Origin: Rhizobium sp. 9140
Lineage (GTDB): Bacteria; Pseudomonadota; Alphaproteobacteria; Rhizobiales; Rhizobiaceae
DNA: 64,000 nucleotides
Reading direction: 5' to 3'
Assembly (NCBI RefSeq): GCF_900067135.1
Contig: NZ_FJUR01000002.1
Span: 547,501-611,500 of the forward strand
Both the position numbers and the translations under genes were made by a program. Each line of letters begins with the position of its first letter. Positions within the stretch are counted from its first letter, which is position 1. Below are positions 2,348 to 8,636 of the stretch, in pieces. The notes beneath the pieces were generated by a model that was given only the letters and a program-made list of their open reading frames with translations, searched no databases and was not told where the DNA came from.

Positions 2348-3439
2348 ATGGGTACGTCAAAGACTGCGACACAGGATCAGGCCGCCGGACCCCTGACGAA
2401 TGGAGCCCTCGACTTACCAGCCCTCAACATCGACGATTACAACATCGAGGTTCGCGACAGGCAAGGCTTCATCGGCGACAAGGCGACGAAGGGTAAGTTT
2501 CGCGAGAAGCTGCATCGCTGGCGAAAGGTGATGCGTGAGGTGGGCATCGACCCGATCGGGAAGGTTGCGACAGCCGATCTTCCCAAGCGCGACATCGATG
2601 CACTGCTCAAGGGTAAGGACGCGCAGGCGGCAGCGTTGGTGTGGAGTGCGATCGAGGATTTCTCACAGGAATTTGCCGATGTCGTTGCGTGCTTCCTGAA
2701 GCAGAAGCATTGGGCTGGCACCGAACGGATCGTGGTCGGGGGCGGCTTTCGTCAGAGCCGCTCCGGCGAACTTGCCATTGCACGCACGGAGATGCTGCTT
2801 GCCGAGCGCGACGTGAACGTCCATCTGGTCCCGGTGGTTCATCACCCTGACGATGCCGGGCTGATCGGTTCGGTTCACCTGATGCCCGCATGGATGCTAA
2901 AGGGGCACAAGGCGATCTTCGCCGTCGATATCGGCGGCACGAATATTCGCGCCGGTGTTGTCGACCTCGGCAAGGCGAAGAGCGACGACAAGCACTATCT
3001 GGAAGAAGCGGCTGTCTGGCAATCGGAGATCTGGCGGCATTCGGCTGATCGTCCAAGCCGTAGTGTGGCCGTCGAGCGTCTGATCGCGATGCTAAAGGAC
3101 CTGATCGCACGCGCCGAGAAGGAGAAGCTGGCGCCGGCGCCGCTGATCGGTATCGGTTGCCCAGGCATCATCCAAGCGGACGGATCGATCGAGCGCGGCG
3201 GGCAGAATCTCCCAGGCGGAAATTGGGAGAGCGACATCTTCAACCTGCCCGCCGCGATCAAGAAGGCCATTCCCGAGATCGACGGACACGAGACCTTCGT
3301 AATGATGCACAACGATGCCGTCGTTCAGGGGCTGTCGCAGATCCCTTTCATGCACGACGTCTCCAAATGGGCCGTGCTGACCATTGGTACCGGCCTCGGC
3401 AACGCCCATTTCGTCAACAAGGCGAAGGCCCATACGTAA
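2348..3439 (+). CDS. ROK-family sugar kinase-like protein with permuted motif order
   Basis: A 363-residue protein carrying all the main ROK kinase motifs in rotated order. The part that is normally C-terminal comes first: a helical stretch, VGGGF at about 130-134 and DDAGLIG at about 168-174. The part that is normally N-terminal follows: the phosphate loop DIGGT at about 194-198, GCPG at 270, HNDA with the presumed catalytic Asp323, and GTGLGN at 347-352. The chain ends 11 residues after that motif. The ROK zinc motif (CxCGxxGC) is not visible. By analogy it may phosphorylate a hexose using ATP. The start could be the ATG at 2348 or the TTG at 2345; a GAAGGGA Shine-Dalgarno lies at 2331. No sugar transporter is adjacent, so the substrate is unknown. 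Confidence 0.75.
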   Translation: MGTSKTATQDQAAGPLTNGALDLPALNIDDYNIEVRDRQGFIGDKATKGKFREKLHRWRKVMREVGIDPIGKVATADLPKRDIDALLKGKDAQAAALVWSAIEDFSQEFADVVACFLKQKHWAGTERIVVGGGFRQSRSGELAIARTEMLLAERDVNVHLVPVVHHPDDAGLIGSVHLMPAWMLKGHKAIFAVDIGGTNIRAGVVDLGKAKSDDKHYLEEAAVWQSEIWRHSADRPSRSVAVERLIAMLKDLIARAEKEKLAPAPLIGIGCPGIIQADGSIERGGQNLPGGNWESDIFNLPAAIKKAIPEIDGHETFVMMHNDAVVQGLSQIPFMHDVSKWAVLTIGTGLGNAHFVNKAKAHT

Positions 3440-3531: not shown

Positions 3532-4419
3532 ATGACGCGTCTGACGGCCAGAGATTTCGATCCGGAACTGCTGGAACTTTACGACTACTATGCGCATGGG
3601 AAGATCTCCAAGCGCGAGTTCCTCGACCGCGCAGCCAAGTTTGCAATCGGCGGACTGACGGCCGCGGCCATTCTCTCCTCCATGAGCCCCGACTACGCAC
3701 TGGCGCAGCAGGTCGCCTTTGCCGATCCCGACATCGCTGCAGAGTATATCACTTATCCCTCCCCCAGGGGGCATGGCGAGGTTCGAGGCTATCTCGTGCG
3801 GCCGGTCAAGGCGCAGGGTAAGGTTCCAGCCGTCGTGATTGTGCATGAGAACCGCGGCCTCAACCCCTACATCGAAGACGTCGCACGGCGTGCGGCGAAG
3901 GCTGGCTTCATCGCCTTGGCGCCCGATGGCTTAAGCTCCGTCGGCGGCTATCCCGGCAATGACGAAAAAGGGCGCGAACTTCAAAAGAGCGTCGATCCGA
4001 CGAAGCTGATGAACGATTTCTTTGCCGCCGTCGAGTTCATGATGACGCACGACGCCGCGACCGGAAAAGTCGGCATGACCGGTTTCTGCTATGGCGGTGG
4101 CGTTTCCAATGCAACGGCCGTTGCCTATCCGGAACTGGCCGCCGCCGTGCCGTTCTATGGCCGTCAGCCGAAAGCCGAGGACGTGCCGCGCATCAAGGCG
4201 CCCTTGCTTCTGCATTACGGCGAGTTGGACAAAGGCGTCAACGAGGGCTGGCCACCTTACGAGGCAGCCCTGAAAGCGGCGGGCACGACCTATGAGGCCT
4301 ATATTTATTCCGGCGCCAACCACGGATTCCACAATGACTCGACGCCACGCTATGACGAGGCTGCGGCCGAGCTTGCCTGGGACCGGACGATCGCCTGGTT
4401 CAATCGGTATCTGGCATAG
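3532..4419 (+). CDS. Dienelactone hydrolase family protein (YghX-like)
   Basis: A 295-residue alpha/beta hydrolase of the dienelactone hydrolase group. The catalytic triad is visible as Cys186 in GFCYGG, Asp233 in GELDKG and His264 in GANHGFH. An N-terminal extension (residues 1-60) contains [16 protein letters not shown] followed by a hydrophobic stretch and ALAQQ, which looks like a Tat-type export signal, though the twin arginines are not canonical. Family members hydrolyse dienelactones or related esters; this branch is poorly characterised. A GAGAGGGAG Shine-Dalgarno lies just upstream. The 92-bp gap after the kinase-like gene allows co-transcription, but no functional link is evident. 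Confidence 0.85.
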
Positions 4420-4461: not shown

Positions 4462-6192
4462 TCAGACGCCCTCGGCAAGCGGCGCCTGAAGACGGCGGTA
4501 GCGACTGTCGGGCATAGCGAGCAGATCGGCATGCGTGCCCTGTTCGGCAATCCGTCCATCCTCCACCACCATGATGCGGTCGGCATTGGCGATCGTCGCC
4601 AGCCGATGAGCGATCACGAGGGTGGTGCGCCCTTCCGCAAGCTCGCTCAGGGACTGCTGGATGGCGCGCTCGGTTTCCGTATCGAGTGCCGAGGTCGCTT
4701 CGTCCAGAATGAGGATCGGCGGATTCTTGAGAAAGATGCGCGCGATCGCCAGCCTCTGCTTCTGCCCGCCGGACAGCTTGACACCGCGTTCGCCGATCAC
4801 CGTTTCCAGCCCCTCCGGCAGCGCCGCGATGACGGCGTCGAGACGTGCGCGTTTGGCGGCCTCGAGAATATCGGCTTCGGATGCGCCCAGGCGCCCATAG
4901 GCGATATTCTCACGGATCGTTCCGGCGAAGAGGAAGACGTCCTGCTGGACGATGCCGATGTTGGAGCGCAGCGATCTCAGCGTCATGTCGCGAATGTCGA
5001 TGCCGTCGATGGTGATTGTCCCCTCGGTGATGTCGTAAAACCGCGGAAGCAGCGAGCAGATGGTGGTCTTGCCAGCGCCTGATGGCCCGACGAAGGCGAC
5101 GGTCTCGCCTGCGCGCACAGAAAGGTCGAGATCGCGCAGGATCGAGCGTCCGCCCTGGTAGCCGAAGCCGGCACCGCGATAGACAATATCGCCTCTCAGA
5201 CGATCGACCGGCACCGCATCGGCGCGATCGGCGATGTCTGGTTCGGTCTGCAGAAACTGCTGGTAGCGCTGGAACCCGGCAATGCCCTTCGGATAGGTCT
5301 CGATGACGGAGTTGATCTTGTCGATCGGACGGAAGAACACGCCGACGAGGAGCAGGAAGCCGACGAAGCCGCCTGCGGTAAGTTCGCCACGAACCACGAA
5401 CCATGCACCCGCCAGCATCACCGCCACCTGCACGAGGCGCATCGAGAGATAGGAGAGCGAGGTCGATGCCGCCATGAACTTGTAGGCTTCGAGCTTGGTG
5501 CGCTGGTAACCGGCATTGTTCTGCGCGAACAACGCGCGCTCATGATCCTCGTTCGCAAAGGCCTGAACGACGCGAATGCCGCCGACATTCTCCTCGATGC
5601 GCGCGTTGAACTCGGCGACCTTGCCGTAGAGCGCATGCGAATTGACCGTCATCCGCGTTCCATAGCGCGTGGTGACGAAGGCGGCGAGCGGTACGATGAG
5701 CGCCGTGATCAGCGCGAGGGGCACATGCACGAACATCATCAGGATGAAGGCGCCGACGAGCGTCATGACCGCGATGAAGACATCCTCGGGTCCGTGATGG
5801 GCCACCTCGCCGATTTCGTCGAGGTCCTTCGTCAGCCGCGCGACGAGATGGCCGGTCTTGTGGTTGTCGAAATAGCCGAAAGAGAGTTTCTGAAGATGGT
5901 CAAAGGCCTTGCGCCGCATCTCCGTCTCGATGCGGATACCGAGCATGTGCCCCCAATAGGTGACCACGACCTGAAGGCCGGCATTCACGACATAGATGAC
6001 GAGCAGGCCGAGACCGGCAAGACCGATCAGGCTGAACTGGTTGGTCGGCAGCAGCCGGTCGACGAAGAGCTTGACGGCAAGCGGGAAGACCAGTTCAAGC
6101 AGACCCGCCGAGATCGCGCAGGAGAAATCCAGCAGGAAGAGATTGCGGTGCGGCCGATAATAGGTGGCAAACTGCCTGATAAGATCATTCAT
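4462..6192 (-). CDS. MsbA-like ABC exporter (fused membrane and ATPase domains)
   Basis: A 576-residue half-transporter. About 310 residues form a six-helix type IV exporter membrane domain, followed by an ABC ATPase with Walker A GPSGAGKTT, signature LSGGQKQR, Walker B ILILDEATSALD and the switch His in IAHR. It should act as a homodimer in the inner membrane, exporting a lipid, glycan or drug; the substrate cannot be read from the sequence. The start at 6192 (MNDLIRQF) is where the membrane domain begins; the 59-residue in-frame extension upstream crosses the terminator hairpin of the preceding gene and is rejected. It is convergent with the hydrolase gene, with a 42-bp gap. Confidence 0.9.
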   Translation of the reverse strand: MNDLIRQFATYYRPHRNLFLLDFSCAISAGLLELVFPLAVKLFVDRLLPTNQFSLIGLAGLGLLVIYVVNAGLQVVVTYWGHMLGIRIETEMRRKAFDHLQKLSFGYFDNHKTGHLVARLTKDLDEIGEVAHHGPEDVFIAVMTLVGAFILMMFVHVPLALITALIVPLAAFVTTRYGTRMTVNSHALYGKVAEFNARIEENVGGIRVVQAFANEDHERALFAQNNAGYQRTKLEAYKFMAASTSLSYLSMRLVQVAVMLAGAWFVVRGELTAGGFVGFLLLVGVFFRPIDKINSVIETYPKGIAGFQRYQQFLQTEPDIADRADAVPVDRLRGDIVYRGAGFGYQGGRSILRDLDLSVRAGETVAFVGPSGAGKTTICSLLPRFYDITEGTITIDGIDIRDMTLRSLRSNIGIVQQDVFLFAGTIRENIAYGRLGASEADILEAAKRARLDAVIAALPEGLETVIGERGVKLSGGQKQRLAIARIFLKNPPILILDEATSALDTETERAIQQSLSELAEGRTTLVIAHRLATIANADRIMVVEDGRIAEQGTHADLLAMPDSRYRRLQAPLAEGV

Positions 6193-6340
6193 GCCGTGGC
6201 TCTTGATACGCGTGTGGCCGCTCCGCAGAAAGCCGATGCAGCCTTCTAACGCATGTTGCCCGAAAGTATGCAGCGGTTCGGGAGCCGAACATGCGTCCGG
6301 CGGAAGATGTAGAGCAAAGACCCAACGGACTGAAAACGAT

Positions 6341-6369
6341 ATGCGGGCAAGCTGGTGGCTTGCCCGCAT
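6341..6369 (-). terminator. Terminator of the heme receptor gene
   Basis: A 12-bp perfect stem (ATGCGGGCAAGC at 6341-6352, GCTTGCCCGCAT at 6358-6369) with a 5-base loop. On the minus strand it is followed after four bases by a T run (complement of AAAA near 6333). It lies 63 bp beyond the receptor stop codon. Confidence 0.75.
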
Positions 6370-6431
6370 CTTAACCTCGCGATTGTGTCCTCGAGGTCAC
6401 GCAGAGGAGAATATGGGCTCTCTCCGTCGGC

Positions 6432-8636
6432 TCAGAACTTCTGCGTCAGGGAAATCTTGAAATAGCGTCCGGCTTCCGAATAAAACTCGGATGCGTTGGC
6501 GATTTCCTTGACTTCGAGAGCGTCGAAATAGGTCTTGTCGAACAGATTGTAGACGCCGCCCTGAATGCGCAGGCCCTTGGTCTGCTCAGGCTCCCACCAG
6601 CCGGTCAGGTTGACGATGCCGTAGCCGCCCGGCTTGGTTGCGGCAATGGAATCGTCGTCCACGGCAGCGGCGGTGACGAGGCTGAGATCCGTTCCCCAGA
6701 ACGCGGTATTGTAACCGACGCCGACGATCGCCTTCAGCGGCGCGACCGAGGCGAGCAGTTCGTCCGTGTCGAGATCGGTCCCGCGGGCATAGGCGAGCGA
6801 TCCGTGGAGGTCGATACCGGACGAGAAGGTCTTCTGCGCGCGGGCCTCGACGCCGGAAATCCGGACACGGGCGCGGTTGAAGTATTCGATGCTTCCGACG
6901 CGATACCCTGCCTCGGGCGTCGTTTCCGTGTCGATGAAGTTCTTGTAGCGCGTGGTGTAGGCCGCAATCCGCCCGCCGAAATCCTCATCGCCGAAGTTCG
7001 CGCCTGCTTCGAAGCCGTAGCTCGTTTCGGGGTCGAGATCCGGATTGCCGATCTGCCTGTAGAGCGGTGCATTGTCATAGTTGCTGTAGAGTTGCGAGAC
7101 GTTCGGCGCCTTGAAACCCGTGGTGACCTGCGCGAACAGTTCGACATCCGGGCGTACCTGCCAGGCGGCGCGGAGCTTCGGAGAAAGCCGGAAATCGCTC
7201 TGGCCCTCGGGAAGATCCGGGCTGTTGCCGATGCTGGTATAGGTCGAGGTTTCCTGCGGATCGTGGCGATACCAGTCGAGGCGCAGGCCGGGGGTCAGAG
7301 ACACCCCGCTATTGCCGAGGCCGATCTTGTCTTCCGCAAAGAGGCCTACCATCAGGCTGTCGGTGTCGGGCATATCCGAGCGGTTGTTGTGATAGTTGGC
7401 GCAGGCCGGCGCGAAAACGACGTCGCAGGTGTCGTCGCCCTTCTGGTACTGGCTTGTCCGGGTAAAGTCGATATTGCCGCCGAAGGTGACCTGATGATCG
7501 AGCAGGCCGGTATCGAAGCTGGAATTGGCATAACCGCTTGCGCCGTAGGAGCGTGCTTCGTTATCGCTGGAACGCATATAGGTGCCGATCGGGCCTGTCA
7601 GGCGCGTGCCGTGCGTGCCTTCGATGCGCTCCGCCCTCTGAAAATAGACGGTGGCAAAAGCGCTGTCGATCCAGCTGTCGCCGCTCGTTGCGTCGAAGAA
7701 ATAGTCGAGCGACAGGCGATCGCGCTTCTTGTCAGAATCGCGGTCATAGTCATCGGCCTGGTAGGTCCCACCCTGCGTCTGACGCAGGTTCGTGGTCGTG
7801 TTCTGGTCGTAGTGCTCGGCCGTCATGCCGATCGTGTGGCCGCCTTCCAGCGACTGACGGACCTTGAAGAGAATGTTGCGACGGTTGAGATCCATCGGAT
7901 CTGCCTCGGTGCGGGTCGCACCGTAACCGCCGACATCCCCGCCCGTCTCCTCTTCGCGTCCATACTTGTAGGAGGTCTGGAAGAGCACGGAGGTATTGTC
8001 GAAGCGCTTGGCGACGGCTGCGGCGCCGATCAGCGAACGGTCTGAGCCGTCATAGCCGAGCTTGGCGACGCCACCGACGGTGGCTCCGTCCGCAATCAGG
8101 TCTTCCGGCTCCAGCGTGCGCAGGATGACGGCACCGCCGAGAGCCCCCGAGCCCGCACGGCTGGAATCGGCACCTCGCAGGATATCGACGGTGCCGAGTG
8201 ACGCGAAGTCGTAGGTATCGACACCGCCCTGTGAGTTGCGCACGCCGTCCGACAAATACGGCACCGGAATGCCGTCGATCGTCGTCAGGACGCGGTCGGC
8301 TTCCAGGCCGCGGATATTGACGCTTTTCGTTGCCGAAACGAAGCTGACGCCCGGCTCCGTGGTATCGCCGAGGTCGTCGAGATCGTCGATATCCTTCTCG
8401 GCGATCTGTTCGGCCGTGGTGCGGGTCGCGAGCGGGGAATCTTCCGGGGCGCCCTGCCGCACGCGCTTGCCCTTGACGATGATCGTCGGCAGCGCCGTCT
8501 GCTCCTGCGAAGCGGCCGTGCCCTGCGCCGGAGGCGCATTCTGGGCGAAGACCGGCGACGTCATGGACGCAAACGCGCTGACGACCACGAGAGATGAGCA
8601 GGCAAGGAGTAGTGACCGCAAGCCCCGGGATACCAT
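6432..8636 (-). CDS. TonB-dependent heme/hemoglobin receptor (ShmR/HmuR-like)
   Basis: A 734-residue outer-membrane receptor. A signal peptide (about 1-32, ending SPVFAQ) is followed by the plug domain with a TonB-box-like region (LPTIIVKGKR), the plug motif VNIRGLEADRVLTTIDG and DILRGADSSRAGSGALGG. The beta-barrel carries FKAPNVSQLY and NPDLDPETSYGFE, the region corresponding to the FRAP/NPNL box of heme receptors, and ends in the barrel signal KISLTQKF. It should import heme using TonB energy. The start at 8636 has a good AAAGGAAA Shine-Dalgarno; the 25-residue longer form is rejected. A TGA-N9-TCA element about 125 bp upstream suggests iron control. No heme ABC transporter genes are adjacent. 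Confidence 0.9.
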   Translation of the reverse strand: MVSRGLRSLLLACSSLVVVSAFASMTSPVFAQNAPPAQGTAASQEQTALPTIIVKGKRVRQGAPEDSPLATRTTAEQIAEKDIDDLDDLGDTTEPGVSFVSATKSVNIRGLEADRVLTTIDGIPVPYLSDGVRNSQGGVDTYDFASLGTVDILRGADSSRAGSGALGGAVILRTLEPEDLIADGATVGGVAKLGYDGSDRSLIGAAAVAKRFDNTSVLFQTSYKYGREEETGGDVGGYGATRTEADPMDLNRRNILFKVRQSLEGGHTIGMTAEHYDQNTTTNLRQTQGGTYQADDYDRDSDKKRDRLSLDYFFDATSGDSWIDSAFATVYFQRAERIEGTHGTRLTGPIGTYMRSSDNEARSYGASGYANSSFDTGLLDHQVTFGGNIDFTRTSQYQKGDDTCDVVFAPACANYHNNRSDMPDTDSLMVGLFAEDKIGLGNSGVSLTPGLRLDWYRHDPQETSTYTSIGNSPDLPEGQSDFRLSPKLRAAWQVRPDVELFAQVTTGFKAPNVSQLYSNYDNAPLYRQIGNPDLDPETSYGFEAGANFGDEDFGGRIAAYTTRYKNFIDTETTPEAGYRVGSIEYFNRARVRISGVEARAQKTFSSGIDLHGSLAYARGTDLDTDELLASVAPLKAIVGVGYNTAFWGTDLSLVTAAAVDDDSIAATKPGGYGIVNLTGWWEPEQTKGLRIQGGVYNLFDKTYFDALEVKEIANASEFYSEAGRYFKISLTQKF

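Follow-up and report, generated by a model that had tools for sequence, protein, structure and literature searches.

The closest described relatives of the protein considered here are sugar kinases of the ROK family (PF00480), such as NanK (6q26, 2yhy) and the ROK glucokinase 3vgk. These enzymes share the DxGGT, catalytic Asp, GTG and GGG motifs, in this family the signature continues from GTG to the ExGH region, and the zinc motif CxCGxxGC is present in many, though not all, of the members. A gene in a 64,000-nucleotide stretch of the Rhizobium sp. 9140 genome (contig NZ_FJUR01000002.1, positions 547,501 to 611,500; hereafter, the window) encodes a protein with the same four motifs but with the two halves of the chain rotated. 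Its chain departs from the canonical order in ending 11 residues after GTGLGN; it lacks CxCGxxGC, and about 60 residues at the new N-terminus (15-74) have no confident ROK counterpart by sequence. We consider it very probable that this protein is a kinase of ROK descent (ASKHA/hexokinase fold) that has undergone natural circular permutation, most likely an ATP-dependent hexose 6-kinase with glucose as the probable substrate.

Three other groups of described kinases resemble this protein in part. The polyphosphate/ATP-glucomannokinase PPGMK (1woq) provides the best PDB sequence match to its C half (E 0.0045) and shares 27% identity with it in a structural alignment, but is of canonical order and shorter (253 residues in the structure). 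The non-ROK glucokinase Glk (PF02685) has the GTGLG phosphate-2 motif and the general fold in common with the permuted kinase. However, it is of canonical order, the N half of the permuted protein shows no profile similarity to it above noise, and the source genome carries a separate, canonical Glk. The best NCBIfam score was obtained with BglK (NF042998; E 4.7e-6), but at 26.1 bits it stays below the cut-off of 550, and its best stretch comprises only residues 335-359.

The original prediction knew of no described permuted ROK enzyme. Likewise, we found no description of a permuted ROK or hexokinase-group kinase in the open-access literature (PMC, exclusive of preprints and subscription journals), and no paper in open-access PMC on ROK, glucokinase, trehalose and Rhizobium. 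The accessible part of a 2025 review of glucose kinases (PMC12696579) contains no word beginning with "permut", and that of a kinase classification from 2005 (PMC1079889) mentions circular permutation in general terms only. Database names of the relatives include ROK family protein, glucokinase, NBD/HSP70 family sugar kinase, and hypothetical protein; the rotation is indicated in none of those seen. Few whole enzymes are known to be circularly permuted in nature. A branch of many permuted proteins, occurring beside canonical ROK kinases in the source genome, makes the origin of a permutation testable, as well as questions of lobe closure, zinc dependence and substrate change after permutation. 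It also offers a ready natural example of a protein that swapped its ends yet was kept by evolution.

Motif order and homology of the two halves

The kinase gene is a single uninterrupted open reading frame (ORF) with an ATG start; an in-frame TTG at position 2345 is an alternative start, which would give 364 amino acids. The motifs follow one another in the order VGGGF, DDAGLIG, DIGGT, GCPG, NLPGGNW, HNDA, and GTGLGN. The features are listed below; all are on the + strand, and residues named as invariant are identical in 93 of 93 rows of the alignment of permuted homologues.

2348..3439, +: coding sequence of the permuted ROK-type kinase, 363 amino acids plus stop (ORF list, PF00480 match, homologue coverage, and ratio of nonsynonymous to synonymous substitution rates, dN/dS)
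2420..2881, +: residues 25-178, C-terminal segment of canonical ROK kinases (helices of the large lobe, adenosine motif, DAGLIG helix)
2735..2749, +: VGGGF, residues 130-134, adenosine motif; GGG 131-133 invariant
2849..2869, +: DDAGLIG, residues 168-174, located near the end of an ordinary ROK kinase; G171 and G174 invariant
2882..2911, +: residues 179-188 (limits approximate), new linker between the former C- and N-termini, located between the two aligned blocks of the doubled-ROK alignment
2912..3421, +: residues 189-358, N-terminal segment of canonical ROK kinases (phosphate-1, catalytic Asp, phosphate-2)
2927..2941, +: DIGGT, residues 194-198, phosphate-1 motif; D194, G196 and G197 invariant, T198 being T in 88 and S in 5 rows
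Residues 270-273: GCPG, from motif reading
3206..3226, +: NLPGGNW, residues 287-293; N287, L288, P289 and W293 invariant
3308..3319, +: HNDA, residues 321-324, with D323; H321, N322 and D323 invariant
3386..3403, +: GTGLGN, residues 347-352, phosphate-2 motif; G347, T348 and G349 invariant

We take NLPGGNW to resemble the NLPGW motif of ROK glucokinases.

Pfam profile PF00480 was matched with 31.5 bits (curated cut-off 22.9), the best stretch being residues 191-358, aligned to profile positions 2-142 of 294. In the NCBIfam NanK model, positions 197-285 of 288 were matched by residues 81-178 (E 0.003). Rotation of the single sequence barely raised the Pfam score (from 31.5 to 31.9 bits), and profile–profile comparison was therefore used. 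Profiles of 93 permuted homologues (alignment A2), 29 canonical ROK proteins and 23 Glk proteins were compared by hhalign. The canonical set was reduced from 39 ORFs, four being set aside by choice and six by a motif filter.

The N half alone aligned with columns 204-303 of the 307-column ROK profile (score 51.5, hhalign probability 92); a reversed copy scored 19.3, and five column-shuffled copies 11.7-18.4. Columns 5-147 were matched by the C half (score 53.3). The native chain gave 52.1 with a single ROK copy, with only one half aligned, and 97.9 with a doubled ROK profile, on one continuous path (75-355 aligned to 204-453). Upon rotation, the chain aligned with the single copy over nearly its full length (2-354 to 5-303; score 86.4). 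Doubling brought no gain for canonical ROKs (532.7 to 532.0) or Glk (84.9 to 84.8). With an ROK profile that lacks four divergent rows, the permuted profile rose from 41.7 to 73.2 on doubling, values lower than those with the full ROK set. These computations show that both halves are homologous to ROK kinases and that their order is rotated. The core of the original prediction, namely that each core ROK motif is present once, in rotated order, and that the chain is one full fold with neither truncation nor frameshift, is borne out by the ORF, both family models, the continuous alignment path, and purifying selection (see below); the stop 11 residues after GTGLGN is seen in the ORF as predicted.

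The full-length predicted structure is confident, with a predicted local distance difference test score (pLDDT) below 50 in residues 1-14. The predicted structures of the two halves complement each other in matching opposite halves of a single solved kinase, the scores of the N half being moderate, and residues 25-169 of the model match residues 145-279 of 6q26_D. Sequential structure aligners are unable to superpose a permuted model over its entire length. A Foldseek search with the N-half model returned nothing below E 0.001; ROK kinases nonetheless lead the list. Residues 25-74 are assigned to the ROK C-terminal segment by structure alone, the profile alignment beginning at A2 column 75.

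The original prediction placed the new termini after the GTG motif, in a region devoid of the zinc motif. The cut can now be placed more precisely, just after the phosphate-2 hairpin. CxCGxxGC was found in 0 of 106 permuted relatives, versus 27 of 29 rows of the canonical profile (34 of 39 canonical ORFs), both of the latter fractions being biased high by a selection script that favoured the motif. Loss of the motif would mean loss of zinc. Residues 15-74 stand in the position expected for the continuation of the ROK zinc segment, with no confident alignment between the two. Within this region, at window positions 2390-2527 (residues 15-60), F41, G43, D44, and R59 are invariant in 93/93 rows. 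The idea that D44 stands in for the Glu of the GCLE motif was dropped, as hhalign places D44 otherwise.

Distribution, origin and gene neighbourhood

In a homologue search, the best 120 of at least 8000 scored proteins covered 94-100% of the query. Matches were present in 37 of 398 genomes of Pseudomonadota: 22 extend across both halves, and 15 from residue 158 onward only, the pattern expected of canonical ROKs. In the source family, Rhizobiaceae, 7 of 101 genomes had a match, every one over both halves. A scan with one genome per species yielded at least 595 pattern matches, at least 578 of which encode a relative; the best 80 of these were inspected and belong to Rhizobium, Sinorhizobium/Ensifer, Shinella, Phyllobacterium, Bradyrhizobium and related genera. 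Proteins of Acidovorax, Polaromonas, Rhodoferax, and Bordetella were among the matches listed for a search from a divergent member. The permuted kinase is a conserved branch in many rhizobia and some betaproteobacteria. Among plasmids, 207 records contain a match, chiefly from Rhizobium (111) and Sinorhizobium (79).

The order of the halves was examined in 116 loci (L011-L126). A motif and score filter was passed by 106 relatives, among them the window and, in some cases, two entries for one genome. In all 106 the order is rotated (in 102 according to the first pattern, the other four having GGGM), so that its conservation across genomes, a check the original prediction had proposed, is now established. 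The ten loci dropped comprise L033-L040, brought in by C-half-only matches, plus L073 and L125, whose relationship extends over both halves but which failed the frame and motif test. In L073 (Rhizobium sp. Leaf453, 6001-7065), the match spans the whole protein while the mechanical ORF stops at 6828; the copy may be broken, or its sequence in error.

The dN/dS values were 0.055-0.076 versus three close relatives and about 0.18 versus two more distant ones. For the close relatives, the N half is less constrained (0.085-0.113) than the other half (0.031-0.052). Both halves are under purifying selection.

A tree of 42 rows, with the permuted rows rotated and the root placed on Glk by choice, united the 14 permuted rows in one clade (100/100) separate from those of Glk. 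The stem of this clade is long (2.89 changes per column), with no resolved sister and no resolved nearest canonical ROK clade. One origin of the permutation is the simplest reading, and duplication, fusion, then trimming, the usual route of permutation, may have led to it.

An opposite-strand upstream gene of one sequence cluster, of the otsB type, was found in 36 of the 80 inspected loci, the 36 including Rhizobium, Shinella, a few Ensifer/Sinorhizobium and others. It adjoins the kinase ORF in 34 of the 36 (mechanical ORF ends at most 125 bases apart or overlapping) and lies about 1.5 kb off in two. One cluster member checked by Pfam is a trehalose-phosphatase (PF02358, E 1.2e-32), and the cluster gene on pRL10 of Rhizobium johnstonii 3841 is annotated as such. 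Those of the 80 loci that come from Bradyrhizobium and Phyllobacterium were not seen to carry a member of the cluster, and otsB is absent beside the kinase gene in the S. meliloti pSymB record examined. The two genes form a divergent pair in many rhizobia (among L041-L120; also, for example, L217, 3097-5086), which suggests shared regulation.

Alternative explanations and proposed activity

Several other explanations of this protein were weighed. An assembly or annotation artefact, such as a frameshift or chimera, has a negligible probability: nothing was found in its favour, and the single open frame, the same order in other genomes and purifying selection all speak against it. Fusion of an unrelated N-terminal domain to a truncated ROK half, an outcome which the original prediction had named as fatal to it, is very unlikely. 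It would explain why Pfam detects no ROK match in the N half on its own, where the sole match is baeRF_family10 (E 0.014, under the cut-off), which we judged to be due to chance; but this half scored 51.5 against the ROK C lobe with six controls at 12-19, its top structure matches are ROK kinases, and GGG and DAGLIG occur within it in the expected order. That the protein is instead a permuted Glk is quite unlikely as well. A weak PF02685 match lies at the GTGLG region of the C half (E 0.01), the PF02685 score of the protein being 12.8 bits with a cut-off of 22.1, and the C half scored 46 against the Glk profile. The N half, however, gave 19.2 with Glk, the level of shuffled copies, as opposed to 51.5 with ROK, and the permuted rows fall outside the Glk set in the tree rooted on Glk by choice (100/100). 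Profile comparison, tree topology, and dN/dS thus make all three explanations improbable.

Further alternatives concern what a permuted ROK protein would do. According to the accessible part of PMC12696579, several ROK proteins act as regulators, and a regulatory or sugar-sensing role without catalysis, as in NagC or Mlc, might be envisaged here. Such a role is unlikely, since Pfam detects no DNA-binding domain, residues 1-14 have a pLDDT below 50, and neither the catalytic Asp nor the phosphate loops vary in any of the 93 rows. Use of polyphosphate, or of polyphosphate and ATP, as phosphate donor, as in PPGMK, has a small but appreciable chance. It would agree with the match of the C half to 1woq and with the lack of the zinc motif in four short PPGK-like proteins as well, although the NCBIfam polyphosphate glucokinase model (NF045942) was matched weakly (E 0.0064; 16.3 bits against a cut-off of 250) and the permuted clade is not placed beside PPGK-like rows with support in the tree. 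There is also a small chance that the permuted kinases are a distinct class, in which rotation, zinc loss and a remodelled segment near the sugar site changed the substrate; beside otsB, such an enzyme would phosphorylate trehalose or a derived sugar, setting the trehalose 6-phosphate level against OtsB.

The four short proteins (L188, L199, L205, and L213; about 220-245 amino acids) are PPGK-like ROK proteins of alphaproteobacterial relatives; ten PPGK-like loci were considered, two of which gave no sequence.

For a permuted ROK hexose kinase, the following scheme can be proposed. The short linker would connect the old C-terminal helix with the DIGGT strand at the old N-terminus, the loop following the phosphate-2 hairpin would contain the new ends, and the two-lobed fold would be rebuilt from a single rotated chain. 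By analogy with ROK kinases, D323 is the putative catalytic base that would activate the hydroxyl group of the sugar; the phosphates would be held by the DIGGT and GTG loops, and the nucleotide by the GGG loop. Since the catalytic and nucleotide motif residues (D194, G196, G197, N322, D323, G347, T348, G349 and GGG 131-133) show no variation in 93/93 rows, the protein is likely, judging by its sequence, to be an active kinase. Glucose with ATP is our first choice of substrate and donor, the alternatives being polyphosphate and a trehalose-related sugar. Where the gene stands beside otsB, the kinase probably feeds glucose 6-phosphate into trehalose metabolism.

Other features of the window and the source genome

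In the window, the kinase gene is flanked by minCDE, on the other strand, on one side and by a dienelactone hydrolase gene on the other. The latter (3532-4419, after the kinase gene) encodes a dienelactone hydrolase with an N-terminal YqhI-like segment. The source genome contains 12 PF00480 places, including this gene, and has a trehalose-phosphatase gene on another contig. Two ROK places of identical score, G000:C3:3111-4025 and G000:C3:152573-153487, are each located within 11 kb of an end of a 163 kb contig and represent either a duplication or an assembly overlap.
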